Origin: Capsulimonas corticalis | Lineage (GTDB): Bacteria; Armatimonadota; Armatimonadia; Armatimonadales; Capsulimonadaceae | Direction: 5' to 3' | Length of the DNA: 64,000 bases | NCBI RefSeq assembly: GCF_003574315.2 | Contig: NZ_AP025739.1 | Location: 5,766,001 to 5,830,000 of the forward strand | Shown: piece after piece, positions 61,545-62,673 of the stretch | Layout of the letters: the number at the start of each line of letters is the position of its first letter | Position numbering within the stretch: the first letter of the stretch is position 1 | Position numbers and translations under genes: made by a program | The notes under the pieces: generated by a model | Told to the model about the DNA's origin: nothing | What the model saw: only the letters and a program-made list of their open reading frames with translations | The model's database searches: none

Positions 61545-61610
61545 GTTAACACAAACTTAACATTGTCTTAACATTCCCTTAACATGACTTGCCGATTTCC
61601 ACGGTACAAT
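61545..61610 (+). promoter_or_regulatory. Pho-box-like array and promoter of the pilin-like gene
   Basis: Four direct repeats of G/CTTAACA start at 61545, 61556, 61567 and 61578, exactly 11 bp apart. This matches the helical repeat spacing of PhoP/PhoB binding sites (TTAACA-type in Bacillus, CTTAACCT-type in cyanobacteria). A TACAAT -10 is at 61605-61610, 20 nt after the last repeat, so the array replaces the -35 region, as at PhoB-activated promoters. The start site would be near 61617, leaving a leader of about 85 nt. Confidence 0.7.
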
Positions 61611-61701
61611 AACCGCGTACCCAAGAGAGACCGGATCCAAACAGTAAACTGTAAGGCCGGCTTATATATTGCGTCTGATACATTCTTAGGAGAATTGATC
61701 C

Positions 61702-62673
61702 ATGAAACTGTCCATGAAAGCAGTCAAGGGTTTCACCTTGATTGAGTTGCTCGTCGTCATCGCCATTATCGCGATTCTTGCCGCTATCCTCTTCCCCGTC
61801 TTCGCCAAGGCTCGTGAGAAGGCCCGCCAGATTACTTGTATTTCGAACCTGAAGCAAATTGGTCTCGCCACTCTTCAGTACAACCAGGATTACGATGAGG
61901 CGTTCTACGCTCATCGCTACAACAACTCACCGAACCTTTTGCTCAAGAGCAATGGCGGCCCTTTCGCGGATGTTTCTGGCGATGTTACGAACAAAGTATT
62001 CTGGATTTCCTTGCTCCAGCCGTATACAAAGAGCTACGATGTTTTCAAGTGTCCATCTAACCCGAACGCGTGGGTCGGTGTCAACACCGATGGTGTCAGC
62101 TGTGGTAATGCGGCAGGCGCCGCCTCAGGATGTTCCGGCGTCGGCTATGGCGGCGAAAATAGTTATGGACACAATGATGTCTTTTTAAGCCCAGCGGGTC
62201 AGTTTAACGATCCGACGAGCGGTGCTCCAGCATTGGTCAGCTTGGCTGCTATTCAGCGCCCGGCATCAACGATTATGGTCACCGACGCTACGTACTATGG
62301 CGTCGCATTTGACGTGAACAATGAGAGCGGCATGCAAGATTCGCACAATGGCTCTTACGATCCTACGGGTGACAAGGCTGTTTACGCGAAAGAAAGCAAC
62401 GCTAATGCCGGCCAGTACGAGAGCTACTGGAAGAACCTCGGCAACAGCAAGTGGGGCTGGGACACTGGCGCCGGTGCAGTCGGCTCCCCGAACATTGGTG
62501 CTGGCGGAACTTCTCCGGCTTCCAAATTGCTTGGAGCTCGCCACACCGACTTCATCAACTGCCAGTTCGTTGACGGACACTGCAAATCTATTCGCTTCTC
62601 GAAGGTCGTTGGCGACGTTTGCCTCTGGTCCACCGACAGTCTGGGTGGCAGCGACCACTCTTTCTGCAACTAA
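61702..62673 (+). CDS. DUF1559 prepilin-like protein with H-X9-DG motif
   Basis: 323 residues. The leader [10 protein letters not shown] ends at the prepilin peptidase site G/F, followed by [20 protein letters not shown] with Glu at +5, then [16 protein letters not shown]. The large C-terminal domain is DUF1559 and has near its end the [14 protein letters not shown] block (H-X9-DG). These are type II secretion/type IV pilus pseudopilin-like surface proteins, expanded in Armatimonadota and Planctomycetes. TAGGAGAATTG precedes the ATG. The gene is T-richer at third positions than its neighbours, as highly expressed genes often are. Monocistronic with its own terminator. Confidence 0.88.

Follow-up and report, generated by a model that had tools for sequence, protein, structure and literature searches.

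A four-repeat 11-bp array in front of a DUF1559 pilin-like gene of Capsulimonas corticalis appears, with high likelihood, to be an operator bound by a response regulator of the PhoB family, which would couple this gene to phosphate limitation; among the arrays of this type sampled across the Armatimonadota, more stand before DUF1559 pilin-like genes than before any other kind of gene. Operators of this kind are already known, and what is new is how far the link to DUF1559 reaches: it is the scale on which pseudopilins are paired with phosphate in Armatimonadota that was unexpected. The array lies in a 64-kb stretch of DNA (hereafter the window; C1:5766001-5830000 of a genome made of one contig of 7.65 Mb), and its features are listed in Table 1 together with related sites elsewhere in the genome.

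The array is genuine and not due to chance. Reading of the sequence bore out the preliminary description of G/CTTAACA repeats every 11 bp that end 20 nt before a TACAAT box with no -35: spacers of 16-19 bp before TACAAT hold no canonical -35 (0-1 of 6 matches to TTGACA), and at a 15-bp spacer ATGACT matches TTGACA at four of six positions. The four boxes together scored 27 out of 28, whereas none of 200 Markov-1 random sequences scored above 21, and the three-box pattern matched twice in the 64-kb window, where shuffles led us to expect no match. Although the intergenic region is A+T-rich, it is hardly credible that these repeats arose by chance from that composition and regulate nothing, in view of the shuffle and whole-genome controls, the conserved promoter geometry, and the conservation of the array ahead of orthologues. 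Immediately upstream of the array, the window encodes an HNH_repeat protein (homing-endonuclease-associated repeat, PF18780; 60717-61430).

Table 1. Features of the window (plain positions) and related sites elsewhere on the contig (positions preceded by C1).
Feature	Position	Strand	Basis or remark
Pho-type box 1, GTTAACA	61545..61551	+	read in sequence; 11-bp register with boxes 2-4
Pho-type box 2, CTTAACA	61556..61562	+	sequence and exact three-box pattern match
Pho-type box 3, CTTAACA	61567..61573	+	sequence and pattern match
Pho-type box 4, CTTAACA	61578..61584	+	sequence and pattern match
Degenerate fifth 11-bp slot, TTGCCGA	61589..61595	+	occupies -35 place; empty slot typical of 20-21-bp class arrays
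-10 element TACAAT	61605..61610	+	exactly 20 nt past box 4
Ribosome binding site AGGAGA	61688..61693	+	sequence; 8 nt 5' of ATG
DUF1559 (PF07596) pseudopilin-like gene, 323 aa, ATG 61702	61702..62673	+	profile scores
Class III prepilin motif and hydrophobic helix	61729..61803	+	profile match; alignment
H-x9-DG motif near C-terminus	62542..62577	+	read in sequence; alignment
C-terminal cysteines C307 and C322	62620..62667	+	conserved within window clade (alignment)
Array, alkaline phosphatase phoA (PF00245, E 6e-73), small gene ahead of phoA	C1:3298268		CTTAACA x3 search
Array, PF04185 phosphoesterase	C1:2138783		CTTAACA x3 search
Array, gene weakly PstS-like (23 bits, cut-off 206.6)	C1:6113167		CTTAACA x3 search
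Array, HAF-repeat gene	C1:6111873		CTTAACA x3 search
Array, DUF1559 gene	C1:2142705		CTTAACA x3 search
Array, second PF04185 gene	C1:2139928		further searches
Array, further DUF1559 gene, cluster of 2142705	C1:2144258		further searches
Array, DUF1559 then calcineurin-type phosphoesterase (Metallophos)	C1:2729574		further searches
Array, DUF1559 gene	C1:7351192		further searches
Array, phytase-like gene (PF13449)	C1:2536758		further searches
Array, another calcineurin-type phosphoesterase	C1:2427057		further searches
Array, pst operon (SLH/Porin_O_P porin-PstS-PstC-PstA-PstB), starting just downstream	C1:5031511		further searches
PhoB-like regulator gene	C1:4497383-4498300	-	43% identity to E. 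coli PhoB
PhoR-like PAS-HisKA-HATPase kinase gene	C1:4496240-4497376	-	domains; directly downstream of PhoB-like gene

Across the whole genome, CTTAACA x3 with up to three mismatches returned eight matches, against none for the reversed control pattern. The preliminary description had read the array as a PhoP/PhoB operator and proposed a scan of this genome for 11-bp CTTAACA repeats near pst, pho and phosphatase genes. They were found there, so absence of the repeat from pst/pho genes cannot be held against that reading, which is supported by arrays ahead of the pst operon, phoA, PF04185 phosphoesterases and a phytase-like gene, and by the PhoB-like/PhoR-like pair that the genome encodes. As far as sequence can tell, both the observation and its interpretation were right. 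The array-headed pst operon contains the only PstB of the genome above the family cut-off (at 5036532), whereas PhoU was rejected as a marker of this operon, both phoU-type genes sitting away from it. A looser pattern (TTAAYA x3, 3 mismatches) gave 38 matches against 14 in the control, and its weakest sites were therefore left uncounted. A weak candidate at 4689413, ahead of a DUF1559 gene, was excluded on account of its own TTGACA -35. The region C1:2130000-2145264 (L026 1725-16264) forms a phosphate island with three PF04185 phosphoesterases and three DUF1559 genes, two of each headed by an array. The HAF-repeat secreted protein (C1:6111862 on; L028 8863-10101) has a five-box array upstream and adjoins the weakly PstS-like gene; we know of no phosphate role for it.

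When the arrays of this genome and its relatives were combined, 74 distinct ones in all, the box consensus was C/T-T-T-A-A-C/T-A/C, and 50 of the 74 had exactly four boxes. A TANNNT -10 follows the last box at 9 bp in 25 arrays and at 20-21 bp in 19, the window array belonging to the latter class, and because the two distances differ by one 11-bp step the -10 stays on the same face of the helix. Pho operators are marked by direct repeats of a 7-8-bp half-site with an 11-bp period, by boxes that take the place of the -35 and keep a constant spacing to the -10, and by the same boxes ahead of pst and phosphatase genes of their own genome. The window array has each of these properties, and is very probably a PhoB-type operator, if a putative one.

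The PhoP box of Bacillus consists of TTAACA-type repeats with an 11-bp period, and the window array is near-identical to it in core (TTAACA), spacing and number of repeats (four); it belongs, however, to another phylum, and here the regulator is PhoB-like and the genome carries porin and secretin genes. The Pho box of SphR, the cyanobacterial PhoB orthologue, is CTTAACCT, with at least three 8-bp repeats separated by 3-bp linkers (PMC1906773). The Armatimonadota arrays are like it in the core CTTAAC, the 11-bp period and the gene classes pst and phoA, but they usually have four boxes, with A or C as the seventh base and the -10 at 9 or 20-21 bp, and their targets, in contrast to the SphR regulon, are dominated by DUF1559 genes. 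The Pho boxes of E. coli are likewise 11-bp direct repeats in the -35 place, with the -10 about 10 bp downstream (PMC1906773); replacement of the -35 by such repeats is shared with the Armatimonadota arrays, whereas the E. coli half-site differs (CTGTCAT; PMC2225411).

Among the ten OmpR-type regulators encoded in the genome, one shares 43% of its residues, along its length, with E. coli PhoB, against 30-39% for the remainder, and its recognition helix is near-identical to that of E. coli PhoB. Together with the PhoR-like kinase it would, judging by similarity, constitute a PhoB-PhoR pair; no Pho array was found upstream of the PhoB-like gene itself. From these sequences we infer regulator binding, activation and a phosphate signal, in a scheme where phosphate limitation would cause the PhoR-like kinase to phosphorylate the PhoB-like regulator encoded next door. 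The regulator would then occupy the four 11-bp repeats in a head-to-tail arrangement and bring RNA polymerase to the TACAAT -10 in the absence of a proper -35, and the DUF1559 gene would be switched on jointly with the pst, phoA, phosphoesterase and phytase genes.

A few arrays stand ahead of genes that have no obvious connection with phosphate (HAF repeat protein, DinB-like), which speaks against a PhoB operator. A different regulator of the OmpR/PhoB subfamily, responding to some other signal (general nutrient limitation, for instance), might instead bind these repeats and coordinate surface and exoenzyme genes, the phosphate genes being only part of the set. This subfamily commonly binds 11-bp direct repeats, ten candidates are encoded, and outside the family more arrays belong to DUF1559 genes than to phosphate genes. 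We nevertheless give such a regulator a slim chance, since nearly all identifiable targets other than DUF1559 are phosphate uptake or phosphatase genes, and this in several families of the phylum, the box resembles that of SphR (PMC1906773), and the best PhoB match combines a PhoB recognition helix with a PhoR-like neighbour.

Among the relatives, arrays were present in five of the seven family genomes, where the control pattern matched nowhere, and in 45 of the 151 genomes of the phylum, with one control match across the 151; the other 106 genomes sampled had no array at the search stringency. Within the family, the targets are DUF1559 genes, PstC-PstA-PstB, PstS accompanied by PhoU_div, phoA, and genes for phosphoesterases and phosphodiesterases. 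Outside it, 26 of 44 arrays with a readable neighbourhood lie directly ahead of a DUF1559-type prepilin gene (at most 450 nt), a figure that pools two samples (12/25 and 14/19), both drawn without knowledge of the neighbouring genes. The ten genomes counted have 27-88 DUF1559 genes each, which we estimate as 1-2% of genes; the PF07596 profile search found none in the control genomes, E. coli included. At a 2% background, the binomial probability is 1.7e-14 for 12/25 and 1.7e-20 for 14/19, values that are too small owing to the relatedness of the genomes, though not enough to matter. The other identified targets outside the family are two PstS, phosphate-type porins (porin O/P), an OprD porin, a phosphoesterase, a phytase and two PhoX, the exceptions being one DinB-like gene and a few genes without identification. 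These arrays define a predicted Pho regulon for the Armatimonadota, whose box and promoter geometry can be used for prediction, and suggest that phosphate starvation in this phylum reshapes the cell surface, beyond uptake. At G144:C499 (L164 about 585-681), PhoX and DUF1559 genes are divergent, and a separate three-box Pho-type array precedes each of them. In two families far apart in the phylum, SLH-domain Porin_O_P porins follow Pho-type arrays (L168, L169 and L170 of family f24; C1:5031601-5033298).

The downstream gene had been described as encoding a DUF1559 pilin-like protein, and the profiles agree: besides a class III prepilin motif, the product scores 32.2 bits against PF07596 (cut-off 23.3), which places it in DUF1559, and 32.7 bits against the prepilin profile TIGR02532 (cut-off 16.3). 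The prepilin motif and helix are invariant across 11 of 11 aligned sequences, G10 excepted, and the predicted N-terminal helix covers residues 13-63 (pLDDT about 90). H281 and D291-G292-H293 of the H-x9-DG motif are also invariant in the 11 sequences aligned; TIGR04294 was not among the profile matches reported for the protein, though the motif is readable. A disulfide between C307 and C322 is possible. The scores against GspG, the T2SS major pseudopilin (34.4 bits, equivalog cut-off 88.85), and PilA, the type IV pilin (36.2 bits, equivalog cut-off 400), fall short of either assignment, and both similarities are confined to the N-terminal helix, the region across which the PDB profile matches, pilins and GspG only, also extend. 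Structure prediction gave a mean pLDDT of 42 in a first model (11 sequences) and 62 in a second (48 sequences), and Foldseek found nothing in the PDB at E < 0.001, its best match (E 1.3) being a type IV pilin. Given this low pLDDT and the absence of a significant PDB match, we assign no fold to the C-terminal domain.

Since the protein is of prepilin type and the genome contains a PilM-to-secretin gene cluster (secretin and PilM genes), it may be inserted in, or polymerised by, a type IV pilus or T2SS-like machine. That it serves the secretion or surface display of phosphate-scavenging enzymes by this route has, in our judgement, about an even chance. Alternatively, Pho control could be real while the Pho-linked DUF1559 proteins are solute- or phosphoester-binding surface proteins and not parts of a pilus or secretion system. 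The Pfam name of PF07596 is SBP_bac_10, and the family was early described as solute-binding proteins (PMC2754498); moreover, the C-terminal domains are large and diverse, and several separate DUF1559 subfamilies are Pho-linked. A binding function of this kind seems to us rather unlikely, as the prepilin cleavage motif and pilin helix are invariant and the PDB profile matches are solely to pilins and GspG at the N-terminal helix, although both observations say nothing on the C-terminal domain.

A role of the DUF1559 product in a pilus or T2SS-like machine would also have functional precedent. The pairing of a surface pseudopilin with phosphate starvation, not an obvious one according to the preliminary description, is less odd given that in Pseudomonas the level of type II secretion proteins goes up when phosphate is limiting (Hxc/LapA; PMC9769906) and that phosphate starvation triggers T2SS-dependent release of a lipoprotein, ElpS, in Caulobacter (PMC2996285). 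The likeness lies in the raising of secretion machinery or cargo (phosphatases, lipoprotein) by phosphate starvation. However, Pseudomonas and Caulobacter have a dedicated secretion operon, whereas here the DUF1559 genes are single and scattered, several per genome, with no adjoining secretion operon. HxcT is itself a pseudopilin. More tentatively, and with somewhat less than even confidence, we suggest that the DUF1559 proteins (tens to more than 100 per Armatimonadota genome) are nutrient-specific pseudopilins, and that the Pho-controlled set, recruited several times, would be the main phosphate-starvation output of the phylum, exporting or displaying phosphate-scavenging enzymes through a secretin machine used in common. 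The DUF1559 family is uncharacterised in spite of its huge expansion, and a subset tied to a known signal provides a condition under which to seek its function.

The DUF1559 protein of the window groups with those of G004, G005, G028 and CAIVZM010000075 (L009) (SH-aLRT 99). Four-box arrays stand at the same place in G004, G005 and G028, the last of which belongs to another family, so that the array of this clade is kept in two families; the array of CAIVZM010000075 (L009) is weak. The MFS-acyltransferase-DUF1559 gene order of the window is preserved in G004, and an array-headed DUF1559-metallophosphoesterase pair occurs both in this genome and in G005. On a quick tree, not a final careful one and with background rows mostly from one genome, the Pho-linked DUF1559 genes cluster (11 changes versus 24 in shuffles) but do not form one clade, at least five changes being forced. 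This scatter beyond one clade suggests repeated recruitment or loss of the Pho link.

Finally, a candidate phosphate-regulated small RNA is probably encoded at C1:5023470-5023600 on the minus strand (L092 5950-6100), with counterparts at L141 405-548, L149 5924-6063, L154 6033-6172 and L250 around 1400-1560; an Rfam search with the candidate gave no match. Its layout is a Pho-type array and -10 followed by about 80 nt with a hairpin GAGGUUG...GACCUC, and its exact core is found in five genomes of the family. The invariant stretch CCAUUGCUCAUC contains CCUCC, which could pair with ribosome binding sites. Five of 16 pairs are changed on both sides, and the terminator displays compensatory changes and a T-run, with a TrmH/SpoU methylase-type gene downstream.
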